DNA from: Microbacterium sp. SORGH_AS_0862
GTDB lineage: Bacteria > Actinomycetota > Actinomycetes > Actinomycetales > Microbacteriaceae
DNA length: 64,000 nt
Assembly (NCBI RefSeq): GCF_030818795.1
Contig: NZ_JAUTAY010000001.1
Coordinates: forward strand, 1,860,001 to 1,924,000
Direction of reading: 5' to 3'
Position numbers and translations under genes: made by a program. The notes under the pieces are model-generated. The model was not told where the DNA came from. It was given only the letters and a program-made list of their open reading frames with translations, and made no database searches. Positions 46,694 through 51,295 of this stretch are shown piece after piece (positions within the stretch are counted from its first letter, which is position 1; every line of letters begins with the position of its first letter).

Positions 46694-46728
46694 CGAAGGG
46701 CCGGATGCACACCGCATCCGGCCCTTCG
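46694..46728 (+). terminator. clpC terminator hairpin
   Basis: CGAAGGGCCGGATGC (46694-46708) and its exact inverse complement (46714-46728) form a 15-base stem with a five-base loop, 14 bases after the clpC stop. No U-tract follows. Confidence 0.75.
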
Positions 46729-46762: not shown

Positions 46763-47266
46763 GTGAGCGAGTTCACCGTGCGGCCGGCGCGGACGGCAGA
46801 TGTACGTGCGATCCATCGGATGCTGGAGCCGTACGTGCAGCGCCGCATCCTGCTCGGCAAGGACATCGTCGTGCTCTACGAGGCGGTGCAGCAGTTCCTG
46901 GTCGCGGAGGACGCCGACGGCGAGCTCATCGGATGCGGCGCCCTTCACGTCATGTGGGACGACCTGGGCGAGATCCGCACGCTGATCGTCGACGACGCGT
47001 GGCTGCACCGCGGCGTCGGGCGGGCGCTCGTCGAGGGGCTCGAGCAACAGGCGCGCACGCTCGGGCTGTCGCGCCTGTTCTGCCTCACGTTCGAGGTCGA
47101 CTTCTTCACGCGGCGCGGCTTCGCGCCGATCGGGGAGCACGTCGTCGATCCGGACGTCTACTCGCAGCTGGTGCGCAGCCCCGACGAGGGCATCGCCGAG
47201 TTCCTCGACCTCGCGCACGTGAAGCCGAACACCCTCGGCAACACGAGGATGCTCAAGGAGCTCTGA
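46763..47266 (+). CDS. Amino-acid N-acetyltransferase (GNAT, N-acetylglutamate synthase-like)
   Basis: Protein of 167 residues. VRPARTADVRAIHRMLEPYVQRRILLGKD at the N-terminus, CGALHVMWDDLGEIRTLIV, the acetyl-CoA loop HRGVGRALVEGLE (about 90-102) and the end region LDLAHVKPNTLGNTRML follow the short stand-alone N-acetylglutamate synthases of actinobacteria (Rv2747 type) that start arginine synthesis. No arginine genes lie nearby. GTG start fixed by the -10 box. Confidence 0.88.
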   Translation: MSEFTVRPARTADVRAIHRMLEPYVQRRILLGKDIVVLYEAVQQFLVAEDADGELIGCGALHVMWDDLGEIRTLIVDDAWLHRGVGRALVEGLEQQARTLGLSRLFCLTFEVDFFTRRGFAPIGEHVVDPDVYSQLVRSPDEGIAEFLDLAHVKPNTLGNTRMLKEL

Positions 47267-47311
47267 GGTTCGCGCGCGGAGAGCCGCGGGGGCGGGGCGC
47301 CGGGTGCGACG

Positions 47312-47317
47312 TAGCCT
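47312..47317 (+). promoter_or_regulatory. -10 box of leaderless membrane protein gene
   Basis: TAGCCT, six bases, then the GTG at 47324. Confidence 0.5.
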
Positions 47318-47323
47318 GGATGC

Positions 47324-47998
47324 GTGAGCACTCCCACCCCGCGTCGTCGCCCGTCGAAGGCCGTGTACCGCCGTCGCCGCCTCGTCGCGCTGATCGGACT
47401 GCTGGTCGTCATCGGTCTGGTGTGGCTTTTCATCGCTCAGCCGTGGAACTCCGCCGCCGCGCCTGCGCCGGCCGCATCCAGCCCTGTCGCGACGCCGGAC
47501 CCCTCCACGCCGGCCGCGACCGATGCCCCCGCGACCGACGCGCCCGCGGACGAGGCGACGGCCGGCGGCGAGCCGACGGACGCGGGCATCCCCACCTGCA
47601 CCAAGGACGACGTGCGTGTGGAGGCGCTGACCAATCAGTCGACCTACGCGGCGGACGAGAACCCGCAGCTGTCGATCCGACTCACGAACACCTCGGCCGC
47701 GGACTGCACGATCAACGTCGGCACGACGAGTCAGACCTTCACCGTCACATCCGGCGAGGACACGTGGTGGCGTTCGACGGACTGCCAGAGCGAGCCGAGC
47801 GACATGGTCGTGACCCTCACCGCGGGTCAGACCGTGACCAGCGCGACGCCCATCACCTGGGACCGCACGCGCTCCGCCGTCGACACCTGCCAGAACGCGA
47901 ACCGGCCCAAGGCGCCGGGTGGCGGTGCGTCGTATCACCTGGCCGTGTCGATCGGCGGCATCTCGTCCGCGCAGTCTGCGCAGTTCCTGCTGAACTAA
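47324..47998 (+). CDS. Membrane-anchored extracellular protein of unknown function
   Basis: Protein of 224 residues: a basic N-terminus, one helix (RLVALIGLLVVIGLVWLFI, about 19-37), an Ala/Pro/Thr-rich linker to about 90 and a beta-rich domain with four cysteines (IPTCTKDDV, ADCTINVG, STDCQSE, VDTCQNA) that could form two disulfides. The domain with NPQLSIRLTNTSAADC resembles DUF4232-like or intracellular-proteinase-inhibitor-like folds but I cannot assign it firmly. Its stop codon overlaps the remnant of an esterase 3' end described at 48001. Confidence 0.8.
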   Translation: MSTPTPRRRPSKAVYRRRRLVALIGLLVVIGLVWLFIAQPWNSAAAPAPAASSPVATPDPSTPAATDAPATDAPADEATAGGEPTDAGIPTCTKDDVRVEALTNQSTYAADENPQLSIRLTNTSAADCTINVGTTSQTFTVTSGEDTWWRSTDCQSEPSDMVVTLTAGQTVTSATPITWDRTRSAVDTCQNANRPKAPGGGASYHLAVSIGGISSAQSAQFLLN

Positions 47999-48000
47999 GC

Positions 48001-48030
48001 GTCCAGCCCGAACGTCTCGGCGGCGAGGTC
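48001..48030. repeat. Left direct repeat flanking the TIGR04255 island (remnant esterase 3' end)
   Basis: GTCCAGCCCGAAC + two bases + CTCGGCGGCGAGGTC; 28 of 30 bases match 49821-49850. Read on the minus strand it encodes DLAAETFGLDA then TAG, versus DLAAELFGLDR then TAG at the real end of the esterase gene. CCGAGA follows a short divergent stretch in both copies. Confidence 0.85.
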
Positions 48031-48050
48031 CCTATCCGAGAGAGTCAGGC

Positions 48051-48056
48051 TAGGCT
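48051..48056 (+). promoter_or_regulatory. -10 box of the TIGR04255 island
   Basis: TAGGCT, six bases, then the GTG at 48063. The island therefore carries a promoter of the host type at its left end. Confidence 0.5.
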
Positions 48057-48062
48057 GTCAAT

Positions 48063-48854
48063 GTGACTGATGGCGTACCCGTCGACGTCCTGACTCGTGT
48101 TCTCGCCGATCCTCCCGTGACAGAAGCGGTCGCCGGAATCGAGTTCCGGGGTCGAGGCTTTGATGTGATCCGTCTCGTACATGAGGCGGCGCGTTGGGGT
48201 GAGGATTTTCCCATCGGTTCTGTGCAGCCCGCGCTACCTGTGACGCGCCCCGTGGGGCAGCCGGGGGCGGAGTTTGAGATGGAGTTCTTCACAGTGCCGC
48301 CGCCTCGGCTCTGGAACGCGTCTCAGGACCAGCAGTGGCTTGTGCAGTTGCAGGACGATCGACTCCTCCTGAACTGGCGCAAGGTGGACGCAGCGTGCAC
48401 GTACCCGAAGTACGAGACGATCCGAACTGAGTTCGAGCGAGTGCTATCAATGCTCGATATCCCGATCGGCCAGGAGCTAGTGCCGTTGGTCGCAGAGTTC
48501 TCGTATGTGAATCACATCACCCACGACGAAGCGTCTGGTCTGCACGAGATTTATTCAGTCTTCCAGCGACCCACACAGCCTCTGCCAGGTGCGGTTGTCA
48601 GCGAGCGGTACGAGCTGGTTACCAGGGAAAGAACTGAGCTTGGTTTTGCGCAGCTCACCGTGACTATTCAGCCTGCGGCCGGAGACAACGCGACAACTCT
48701 GACCGTGTCCACAAAGTCCTTTGCAGGTTCGCAGCTAGAATCGAGTCAGATTATGGAACTGATCGATTCTGCTCACGAGGTGTCAAAGCGAGCATTCTTT
48801 GCCATCGTCTCGGACCGGGCAACCAGTAACTGGGGGGTTCAAGATGGTTCCTAG
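48063..48854 (+). CDS. TIGR04255 family protein
   Basis: Cytosolic protein of 263 residues. The N-terminus VTEAVAGIEFRG and the C-terminal helix MELIDSAHEVSKRAFFAIVSDRATSNWG match the TIGR04255 family, sporadically distributed proteins of unknown function with a typical HE...F...WG ending. Base composition is clearly lower in G+C than its neighbours (codons such as CTA, ACT, TTT are frequent). The next gene starts before this one ends (11-base overlap), so the three island genes form one operon. Confidence 0.82.
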   Translation: MTDGVPVDVLTRVLADPPVTEAVAGIEFRGRGFDVIRLVHEAARWGEDFPIGSVQPALPVTRPVGQPGAEFEMEFFTVPPPRLWNASQDQQWLVQLQDDRLLLNWRKVDAACTYPKYETIRTEFERVLSMLDIPIGQELVPLVAEFSYVNHITHDEASGLHEIYSVFQRPTQPLPGAVVSERYELVTRERTELGFAQLTVTIQPAAGDNATTLTVSTKSFAGSQLESSQIMELIDSAHEVSKRAFFAIVSDRATSNWGVQDGS

Positions 48855-49338
48855 CGCCACGCTAACGCGAGAAAACTCGCTCAATACCTCACCGTCGACA
48901 CTGAAATCCATGGCGCCAAGCCTGTCCCACATGGTTCCCGTCCGTCCATCAGCTGGTCGCACTCGACGGGATCTTTTGGTGTACGCACACCGCCAGTTAC
49001 GTGACCTTGCGGAGCGCCAGCGCGCGGTGAATATCGAGCCATACCGGATCATCCTGAGGTTGCTCGGCCATGTCTTGACCGATGGTGCCCCTACTCCACA
49101 GATCGGGGACAACGGTGATGGTGGCGTAGCCGTTGACTGGCTGGTGGATGATGTTTCGGTGCGTCTCGATTACGAGGATGAGACAGAAATCCTGCTTACT
49201 GCTGTGCGCGGCAGGGAGCGCATCCTGTGTGACACCCTCACCAAATGGTGGGTAGAGGACGACGTGACCATCAAGCAAGCAAGGGAGCTTCTCTCAGGCC
49301 TTGCTGGGCAGGTTCGGAACCCTATCCCGCTGAGCTAA
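48844..49338 (+). CDS. Unassigned island protein 2
   Basis: Protein of 164 residues, soluble, not recognised. A Ser/Thr-rich N-terminal 40 residues (possible late start at MAPSLSHM or MVPVRPS) precede TRRDLLVYAHRQLRDLAERQ and a helical/beta part with GGVAVDWLVDDVSVRLDYEDETEILLTAVRGRERILCDTLTKWW (about 92-135). The ATG at 48844 overlaps the TIGR04255 gene. Low G+C like its partners. Co-expression with TIGR04255 suggests a shared complex or pathway. Confidence 0.65.
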   Translation: MVPSATLTRENSLNTSPSTLKSMAPSLSHMVPVRPSAGRTRRDLLVYAHRQLRDLAERQRAVNIEPYRIILRLLGHVLTDGAPTPQIGDNGDGGVAVDWLVDDVSVRLDYEDETEILLTAVRGRERILCDTLTKWWVEDDVTIKQARELLSGLAGQVRNPIPLS

Positions 49339-49343
49339 AAACC

Positions 49344-49818
49344 GTGCCCAGGACGAGCACCAATACTGCAGTGGATTTTGCGGTGCAAACCGATGAAGAA
49401 CTGGTTCGGAGGTTCAACGACGCAGACCCAGCCCACTACGACTCGGTCCTCAGGGACGAAGGAGCTGGTGGCGGACGTTTCCTGAAGGCTGGTGCTCTTC
49501 GGTTCGACGACGATGGTTTGTCGGTCTACCAGGACATATATCCTCCTGCAACTGGGGCTGTCGGCGAGATCGGTTGCTACGGTTAGCCACTCAGCGATTG
49601 CATGCACTTCGCAGACGAAGGTTGAACAATTCGATTCGGGTTTGGCAGTAAGCGGCGGAGCTGCTGAGTTCGTCGTAGTTCCAGATCCACTGCAGCCCGG
49701 AGAGTTGTACGATCCCGCGCACGCGCTGGTGCAGATGCGAGCAAGCTACCCGTCGAATACCAAGCGCAGAGCTGCGATCGGCCAACTGGCGAGGTCGGTG
49801 TTCACGGTCTTGGACTAG
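49344..49818 (+). CDS. Unassigned island protein 3 (frameshifted in this sequence)
   Basis: Probably 157 residues when one G of the four at 49554-49557 is removed; the first frame ends at a TAG soon after, while a sensible frame continues in +1 to 49818. The joined protein reads TDEELVRRFNDADPAHYDSV, then FLKAGALRFDDDGLSVYQD, PPATGLSARSVATVS and finally ELYDPAHALVQMRASYP. The DGLSVY and DPAHA motifs recall short uncharacterised actinobacterial proteins, but no function is known. The GTG at 49344 is five bases after the previous stop. Its TAG overlaps the opposing esterase stop. Confidence 0.6.
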
Positions 49819-50669
49819 CGGTCCAGCCCGAACAACTCGGCGGCGAGGTCGGCGACCGAGATGCTCGTGGCCGTGCGGCCGATCAGGCGCGGCCCGGGCT
49901 GGGGTCCGGGGACGGTGTGGCCGCCGCCGTGCACCGTGACGAATGTGACGGGCGGGTGGCCCGCCTCCCGCCAGTTGGCGCGCTCGATGCGCGTGCCGTC
50001 GGGGCGCGATGCCGCATCCGCCCGTGTCATCGGGGGTGCGGAGATGCCGTTCCGCCGCGCGAAGTACGCGGCGGTCCCGGGAGCGGAGAGGGACGAGCCG
50101 CCGACGCGGAACACCAGCTGCGCCCAGCGCCGCATCCGTCCGCCGGTGTAGGGGGCGATGGGATCGGCCGTGCCGTGCACCAGCAGCACGGGCACCGGAT
50201 GCGGCGCGGGAGCCGCCTGGGGGAGCAGGAAGCTGTCCGACTCGGGCAGCGTCGCGGCGACGATGGCGCCGCCGGCGAGGGGGGAGGCATTCTCGTGGAG
50301 CAGTCGCATGACCATCTGGCCGCCGTTGGAGAACCCGATGGCGTACACGCGGTCCGCATCGATGCCGTGCGTCTCGCCCAGCCGGGCGATGACCGCCTGC
50401 GCGAAGGTCGCGTCGTCGATTCCGGCGAGCCGGGCCGGGAACCGGCTCTCGCGGCGCGCGTCGTTCCAGTTGCCGCGATAGCCGTCGAGATACGCCACGA
50501 GCGCGCCCTTTCCGACGAGCGCGTCGTACGCGCCGCCCGTGAACGCGCGATGGACCTCGCCCGACTGTCGCGACCCGTGGAAGACCAGCACGAGCGCCTG
50601 CCCCTGCCTCCGCGGGCCGACAACGGTGAACGTCCGCATCCGCCCGTCTACCTCGATGTGCTCCGTCAT
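49815..50669 (-). CDS. PHB depolymerase/LpqC-like esterase
   Basis: Alpha/beta hydrolase of 284 residues. LVLVFHGSRQSG (about 27-38) is the oxyanion strand, GFSNGGQM carries the nucleophile Ser, HGTADPIAPYTGG the acid, and HGGGHTVPG the catalytic His, in the order of the polyhydroxybutyrate depolymerase/feruloyl esterase group. No signal peptide, so an intracellular or small-ester role is more likely. The ATG at 50669 follows GGAGG. A MerR-type promoter drives it and a MerR gene is divergent from it. Its last codons are the target of the island insertion. Confidence 0.88.
   Translation of the reverse strand: MTEHIEVDGRMRTFTVVGPRRQGQALVLVFHGSRQSGEVHRAFTGGAYDALVGKGALVAYLDGYRGNWNDARRESRFPARLAGIDDATFAQAVIARLGETHGIDADRVYAIGFSNGGQMVMRLLHENASPLAGGAIVAATLPESDSFLLPQAAPAPHPVPVLLVHGTADPIAPYTGGRMRRWAQLVFRVGGSSLSAPGTAAYFARRNGISAPPMTRADAASRPDGTRIERANWREAGHPPVTFVTVHGGGHTVPGPQPGPRLIGRTATSISVADLAAELFGLDR
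49821..49850. repeat. Right direct repeat flanking the TIGR04255 island (esterase 3' end)
   Basis: Matches 48001-48030 at 28 of 30 positions, same orientation, 1820 bases apart. It encodes the C-terminal DLAAELFGLD of the intact esterase gene, as expected if the element rebuilt the 3' end of its target on integration. Confidence 0.85.
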
Positions 50670-50709
50670 GACCTCCGCCTCTCCGACCCGGTTCCGCGGG
50701 TCGCTCGCG

Positions 50710-50740
50710 ACGATATGCTTTGACATCGTGTCAAGGTCAA
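50710..50740 (-). promoter_or_regulatory. MerR-type promoter/operator of the esterase gene
   Basis: On the minus strand TTGACC (-35, 50740-50735) and TATCGT (-10, 50715-50710) are 19 bases apart, the stretched spacing typical of MerR-activated promoters. The spacer contains the exact dyad TTGACA-TCG-TGTCAA (50720-50734). Confidence 0.7.
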
Positions 50741-50756
50741 ATCGAGGGGCAGGCGC

Positions 50757-51104
50757 ATGATCATCGGCGAGCTGAGCGATCGGAGCGGCGTCAGCGCGCG
50801 CTCGATCCGCCACTACGAGAAGCTGGGCCTCATCAGTCCGCAGCGCGGCGACAACGGTTACCGTCACTACTCGGACCGGGCGGTGCCGATGGTGGCCACG
50901 ATCCACGCCATGTTCGAGCTCGGGTTCACGCGCGACGACGTTCGGGCCGTCCTGCCCTGCGCCACGGGCGAGAAGTCGCACGGCGACGCAGAGCTGCTCG
51001 GCCGGGTGGCCGAGATGCGGGAGCGGGTGGCAGGCCGCATCCGCACCCTCACGGAGACGGAGCAGGCGTTGGCCGGCTTCCTCGCCGTCAACCGGGGGCG
51101 TTGA
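50757..51104 (+). CDS. MerR-family transcriptional regulator
   Basis: Regulator of 115 residues. IIGELSDRSGVSARSIRHYEKLGLISPQRGDNGYRHYSDRAV (about 2-43) is the winged helix-turn-helix; FELGFTRDDVRAVLPC and a long helix (about 75-105) form the dimerisation part. A single Cys (LPCATGE) may sense ligands but the effector domain is minimal. It is divergent from the esterase gene and presumably binds the 19-base-spacer promoter between them. Confidence 0.9.
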   Translation: MIIGELSDRSGVSARSIRHYEKLGLISPQRGDNGYRHYSDRAVPMVATIHAMFELGFTRDDVRAVLPCATGEKSHGDAELLGRVAEMRERVAGRIRTLTETEQALAGFLAVNRGR

Positions 51105-51106
51105 GA

Positions 51107-51295
51107 CTAGGGCCTCATGCGGCGCTTACCGGCCGTGAAGGCCACCACGAGCCCCCATCCGCTGAGGGCGCCGGTGATCCAGGTGATGTAGTGCAGCCAC
51201 GACGGTGCGCCGTTGAGGTCCCAGATCACGAAGAGGGTCGCCAGGATGAGGCCGACGGCCGCGGCGACGATGCCGATGATGCGATCGCGGTTCAT
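51107..51295 (-). CDS. Small two-helix membrane protein (62 aa)
   Basis: Two hydrophobic helices, about 6-25 (IIGIVAAAVGLILATLFVIW) and 34-54 (HYITWITGALSGWGLVVAFT). Unknown function. The ATG at 51295 has a TACCGT box exactly six bases upstream, inside the 3' end of the neighbouring acetyltransferase gene. Confidence 0.72.
   Translation of the reverse strand: MNRDRIIGIVAAAVGLILATLFVIWDLNGAPSWLHYITWITGALSGWGLVVAFTAGKRRMRP

Follow-up and report, generated by a model that had tools for sequence, protein, structure and literature searches.

A 1.8-kb integrase-less island between attachment-type repeats at the 3' end of an esterase gene, probably reduced from a larger integrative element

The window, i.e., the whole 64-kb stretch of DNA that was analyzed, contains a small island of low G+C content between two host genes, an upstream gene and an esterase gene. 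The features of this region are as follows, with positions counted from the first base of the window.

47324–47998, plus strand: host gene (the upstream gene), 224 aa, without a match to Pfam above the cut-off; convergent with the esterase gene in relatives
47994–48030: left attachment-type repeat (attL-like), identified by repeat search and alignment with relatives as a probable relic of the esterase 3' end; the relic frame is on the minus strand
48031–49813: low-G+C DNA, apparently inserted judging by G+C content and comparison with relatives; not at this locus in three of them (G035, G326, and G158)
48063–48854, plus strand: ORF1, 263 aa, TIGR04255 family protein (NCBIfam E = 7.7e-15)
48844–49338, plus strand: ORF2, 164 aa, without a named family; found after ORF1 at all eight other operon loci
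49344–49818, plus strand: ORF3, frameshifted, with open pieces at 49344–49586 and 49492–49818; its stop overlaps the esterase stop
49814–49850: right attachment-type repeat (attR-like), identified in the same two ways; the current esterase 3' end, its left part presumably element-borne
49815–50669, minus strand: esterase (alpha/beta hydrolase, Abhydrolase_2), which runs through the right repeat to its stop; the start codon is our choice

The island is about 1.8 kb long and consists of one operon. Its G+C content (positions 48031–49820) was 58.3%, compared with 68.5% in the 5 kb to the left and 72.1% in the 5 kb to the right, and among the 623 island-sized tiles of the window, every one of the 12 with the lowest G+C overlapped the island. 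These values agree with a first-pass annotation of this DNA, which had noticed the lower G+C between the repeats. The same annotation had counted three genes in the island; a three-gene operon is indeed present, but the third gene is not intact. ORF3 is a single open frame in the other loci where it is complete, with homologues mostly of about 140–170 aa, whereas in the window it is split over two frames. Because of this frameshift, the operon is likely not fully functional in this genome. The edges of the island are tight, with 32 bp ahead of ORF1 and the ORF3 stop within the right repeat.

With regard to function, ORF1 passes the curated TIGR04255 cut-off (55.4 vs. 30 bits) but is a weak member of the family. 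The predicted model of the ORF3 homologues, which is of low confidence, resembles ADP-ribosyltransferases. Neither the operon copy in the window nor its intact homologues matched the PADLOC library, the literature searches brought up no description of this operon, and a PMC search for the TIGR04255 name returned no paper. We tentatively regard the operon as probably toxin-antitoxin-like or defense-type cargo whose third protein would have an ADP-ribosyltransferase-like fold.

The first-pass annotation had reported that the island contains no integrase or transposase, and the Pfam search bears this out: none of its four plus-strand and five minus-strand ORFs matched a recombinase or transposase family. 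No transfer gene was found either, as the ORFs of both strands matched no Pfam family above the cut-off. Six-frame searches of the genome detected six tyrosine integrase (PF00589) matches, all more than 400 kb from the island and none beside the att-like site, and four PF00239 matches, all outside the island, the nearest being partial and about 49 kb away. This nearest match, a partial resolvase, lies just beyond the left end of the window (G000:C1:1858575–1858724). A classical transposon or insertion sequence was rejected: the island ORFs include no transposase family, and among the 25 longest of the 33 inverted pairs, none joins the two island ends as terminal inverted repeats. A perfect 15-bp inverted repeat with a 5-nt loop, perhaps a terminator, was observed at 46694–46728, just 3' of an 856-aa ORF.

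Direct repeats of 28/30 bases in the same orientation had been proposed at 48001–48030 and 49821–49850. Both copies are present, with 28 of 30 bases identical; allowing ≤ 3 mismatches, the 30-nt pattern occurs at these two positions alone in the 64-kb window and in 0 of 100 dinucleotide shuffles. Similarly, when the 2.5 kb on either side of the operon were compared for ungapped 30-nt matches, the repeat pair scored highest (28/30), compared with ≤ 22/30 in 10 shuffles. What needs amending is the size, since comparison with relatives gives a better unit of 37 nt (47994–48030 and 49814–49850), whose two copies are identical at 32 of 37 positions. This unit contains the esterase stop and its last 11 codons, so the gene end now comes from the right copy. 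The esterase frame has no internal stops, and direct repeats that equal the 3' end of a restored target gene are a feature the island shares with tyrosine-integrase genomic islands. In the left copy, the remnant frame previously noticed, DLAAETFGLDA followed by a stop, can be read by eye on the minus strand (48030–47995), and its stop overlaps the TAA (47996–47998) of the upstream gene.

We searched for empty sites with window positions 47000–51100 in 149 genomes of the genus and with the esterase protein in 366, of which 24, the own genome included, had a match at E ≤ 1e-30. Besides the own gene, close orthologues were found in G326, G035, G159, and G158 (82–88% identity, for the C-terminal part only in G158), and each of these four has a single copy of the repeat within the 15–20 kb examined, located where the esterase gene ends. 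The upstream and esterase genes of G035, G326, and G158 are immediate neighbors, convergent with overlapping stop codons, which corresponds to an empty site. The two window matches in G035, where both flanks adjoin, overlap by 40 bases, equivalent to one repeat copy. Adjacent neighbors with a single repeat copy are what the first-pass annotation had suggested looking for in related genomes. Of the other 19 esterase relatives, a BLAST comparison with the window covered five (L036–L040, ∼3.8 kb each), in which the stretch of the esterase and MerR genes matches the window and the upstream gene does not. G158 has a deletion near position 11690 of contig C11 (L059), joining the equivalents of window positions 50158 and 51251; the equivalent of 50159–51250, with the 5' part of the esterase gene and the MerR gene, is gone.

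The flanks were then aligned with those of the four relatives. The 7 nt outside the left copy are identical to the relatives at 6–7 of 7 positions, compared with 3–4 of 7 for the corresponding bases at the right copy, and the 16 nt outside the right copy are identical at 14–16 of 16, compared with 7–8 of 16 at the left copy. The native left flank is thus found at the left copy only and the native right flank at the right copy only, which indicates a clean insertion; according to this alignment, the 37-nt segment is duplicated and no DNA was lost. The copies themselves are 31–33/37 (left) and 30–34/37 (right) identical to the relatives, the right copy matching the esterase end of G158 at 34 of 37 positions. 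At the two variable bases of the 30-nt core (48014–48015), the left copy agrees with three of the four relatives, G159 sharing one of the two bases, and the right copy agrees with none. If no later mutation occurred, the crossover would lie to the right of these two bases, within 48016–48030. Together, the empty sites and the flank alignment give good support to the integration into the esterase 3' end, and the rebuilding of that end, originally proposed for this locus.

We also examined whether a longer stretch of the esterase gene was replaced. In the first 300 bp to the right of the junction, the window is 84.7–87.6% identical to three relatives, which are 85.6–87.6% identical among themselves; in the second 300 bp, the corresponding values are 85.0–85.7 and 86.3–89.3%, and beyond 600 bp there is no consistent difference in divergence. 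We see no sign of such a replacement in these identities and read them as indicating none.

A 31-nt pattern of the site, in which the two variable bases were free and ≤ 3 mismatches were allowed, was found in three of the 366 genus genomes: two copies in the own genome, one at the esterase end of G158, and one with 3 mismatches in G178. The last of these is the only occurrence away from the esterase end. It lies at G178:C12:929959–929989 (L083), in a genome without a listed close esterase, and could reflect chance or coding similarity. Neither these 366 genomes, searched with the 31-nt site, nor the viral contigs, searched with a 28-nt pattern that had no match there, yielded an integrase with the attachment site of the island. 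A phage origin of the cargo was rejected, because the viral contigs lack the site pattern and 50,697 phage records gave no DNA match and no ORF1 match.

Different cargo at the same place, another expectation of the first-pass annotation, was found in G159, in the form of an integrase-bearing element at the same gene junction, but with a repeat of its own. Between an upstream gene 94% identical to that of the window and the esterase gene lies a 15.2-kb island (G159:C1:300478–315665; L080, L058); a tyrosine integrase (PF00589, E = 6.4e-18) occupies its left end, and another PF00589 match lies inside. Its repeat is a perfect 16 bp made of the end of the upstream gene. Because this repeat abuts that of the window but differs from it, we take the G159 island to be an independent insertion by another specificity. 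Searching with the G159 integrase identified 16 of the 366 genus genomes at E ≤ 1e-60, including G159. In the six of these 16 that were also matched by the 47000–51100 search (G112, G068, G037, G094, G007, and G080), the related integrases are not near the upstream gene and sit elsewhere, so the junction is not a dedicated hotspot of this integrase type. Furthermore, no integrase was found just past the 3' end of other esterase homologues in 13 genomes; the nearest, in G230, is about 10 kb away on the 5' side.

ORF1 relatives were found in 6 of the 366 genus genomes at E ≤ 1e-10, including the own genome, and a scan of genome contigs yielded three loci: L072 from a Propionicimonas MAG, L073 from a Microbacteriaceae MAG, and L074 from M. 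salsuginis, the last apparently the same locus as G074. A search of 5.8 billion proteins yielded 18 proteins, including that of the window. Homologues of ORF2 and ORF3 follow ORF1 in G271, G074, G250, and L072, and more distant ones in G245 and G276; in L073, the contig ends within ORF3.

We examined eight other operon loci (G271, G074, G250, G245, G276, L072, L073, and L094), five of which are on recognizable mobile elements. Three are repeat-flanked integrase elements, and in two of these an att repeat is near the operon. In G271 (C1:1611246–1626230), a perfect 47-bp copy of a tRNA-Arg end lies ∼170 bp before the operon, and the tRNA, with a PF00589 integrase beside it, is 15 kb further on. 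In G074 (C2:616518–650025), the copies of a 21-bp repeat are 33.5 kb apart, one of them inside an ARAGORN tRNA-Met call of doubtful quality, and PF00589 is directly upstream of the operon. In G276 (C1:2649068–2671783), a 21-bp repeat of a tRNA-Arg end spans 22.7 kb; a PF00589 integrase is beside the tRNA, and a TrwC-type relaxase adjoins the operon. None of these integrase elements has the attachment site of the island. The integrases of G074, G271, and G276 and one of the own genome (G000 2613101, by a tRNA-Arg) are 52–67% identical to one another.

In the Propionicimonas MAG (L072:5537–9888), a tRNA-Ser and a perfect 54-bp repeat of its end bracket a 4.3-kb island that carries the operon and one HATPase/DUF4325 gene. 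The 17.8-kb contig contains no PF00589 match; the MAG is fragmented, this contig ends 7 kb past the island, and seven PF00589 matches are on six other contigs of 3.4–10.7 kb. In a plasmid of Mycobacterium paragordonae (L094; NZ_CP025547.1:79746–81485), the three-gene operon is directly after mobF. Around the operon in G250 (60 kb), the longest exact repeat was 17 bases, and no exact repeat of ≥ 16 bases was found in G245 (20 kb) or L073 (4.7-kb contig). Because the exact search would miss an imperfect repeat such as that of the window, the 2.5 kb to either side of the operon were also compared for ungapped 30-nt matches. Against shuffled maxima of 21–23, this comparison scored 28 for the window and 30 for L072, and found no flanking repeat above background in G250 (21), G245 (22), or L073 (23); the single 23/30 pair of L073, compared with 21 in its shuffles, is not convincing.

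Based on these results, we consider it probable (roughly 0.7) that the island is a minimal element of the cis-mobilizable type, integrated by an integrase that has since been lost, and that a larger carrier was cut down to its cargo. An integrative element would have entered the esterase 3' end at the 37-nt site by site-specific recombination, presumably of the tyrosine-integrase type. Its own copy of the last codons would have replaced the native ones, leaving the esterase whole, and the native end, judging by the empty sites, would have been left as a relic behind the upstream gene. The carrier would have been reduced to cargo near the att site, and the remaining structure would be an attL-like repeat, 32 bp, the three-gene operon, and an attR-like repeat. 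The reduction is suggested by the operon sitting in the integrase elements of three other genomes, near the att repeat in two. Counting against it, the tight edges mean that the deletion must have ended almost exactly at the operon; the two mismatches in the 30-nt core and the slightly greater divergence of the second 300 bp of the right flank are further points against this explanation. The same holds for the failure to find an integrase with this attachment site in the genus genomes and viral contigs searched, for the junction not being a dedicated hotspot, and for the three operon loci (G250, G245, and L073) with no flanking repeat above background.

These flush boundaries would be natural if the island were instead a genuinely mobile cargo unit without an integrase, a small circle made up of the operon and a single att site, inserted by a helper integrase in trans. 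The L072 island, where the same operon again lies between repeats without an integrase, also favors this, as do the six PF00589 matches of the own genome, one of which (G000 2613101) is 58–67% identical to the integrases of the G074, G271, and G276 elements. A precedent is provided by the microcin H47 island of Escherichia coli, which is reported to have no recombination genes, yet to excise and integrate (PMC3191183). Against this, the own genome yielded no other copy of the site or the operon, no helper with this specificity was found, the third gene is broken, and the related helper candidate sits by a tRNA-Arg, not a protein gene. Mobilization in trans may occur, but we consider this explanation unlikely; the broken third gene and the lack of a further copy make us lean toward a remnant.

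Less likely still is a homologous or illegitimate route, in which a circle or fragment that bore the operon and a short stretch of a related esterase end used the 37-nt similarity to recombine, without any integrase. The same footprint would be expected, i.e., an insertion and a duplicated short similar segment, and the 34/37 identity of the right copy to the G158 end would fit. However, a 37-nt stretch with mismatches is a short substrate for homologous recombination, there is no clear replacement of the flanking gene, and elsewhere the operon is in integrase elements with a like footprint. Finally, chance similarity or local duplication around three old core genes, for which only the shortness of the repeat speaks, is practically dismissed by the 0 of 100 shuffles, the low G+C, the scarcity of ORF1 relatives (6 of 366 genomes), and above all the empty sites, which refute it.

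The preferred reading, a reduced integrative element, has known parallels, and the kind of mobility is not new; the new parts are the small size and the operon. By its sequence, the island has the structure of the cis-mobilizable elements (CIMEs), as described in PMC5704250: attL- and attR-like repeats are kept at the edges, and integration and transfer genes are absent. It differs from them in being very small (1.8 kb, one operon), in lying in the 3' end of a protein gene, and in having no visible tandem partner; moreover, its descent from an ICE or IME is presumptive. In Dehalococcoides, 15 ssrA islands without an integration module were termed possible cis-mobilizable elements and likewise have cargo between direct repeats of a gene end and no recombinase; in contrast to our island, for which no partner was seen, they are in arrays with serine-recombinase islands for the same site (PMC3146451). 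The microcin H47 island similarly combines imperfect flanking direct repeats with absent recombination genes, but it is 13 kb long, and its excision and integration were observed experimentally (PMC3191183). What makes the present case useful is a very small, clean, att-flanked island with empty sites in sister genomes, which makes it possible to test how integrative elements are reduced to cargo and att sites or hitch-hike in that form.

A further point of interest is the conserved, mobile three-gene operon, which has no PADLOC match. It is conceivable, although we regard it as doubtful, that the operon is an uncharacterized toxin-antitoxin or phage-defense cassette (a TIGR04255 protein, ORF2, and an effector with an ADP-ribosyltransferase fold) that is repeatedly situated close to att sites in unrelated integrative elements and may travel as an integrase-free att–operon–att unit by means of the integrases of others. 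In a sample of the phylum, TIGR04255 was found in 28 of 336 genomes, including the own genome, with 31 matches, 30 of which had loci and 29 of these were outside the window. Neighbors resembling both ORF2 and ORF3 were present at only three of these 29 loci (L132, L133, and L134), a lower bound because several loci are cut by contig ends, and two others (L135 and L138) showed weak ORF3-like matches alone.
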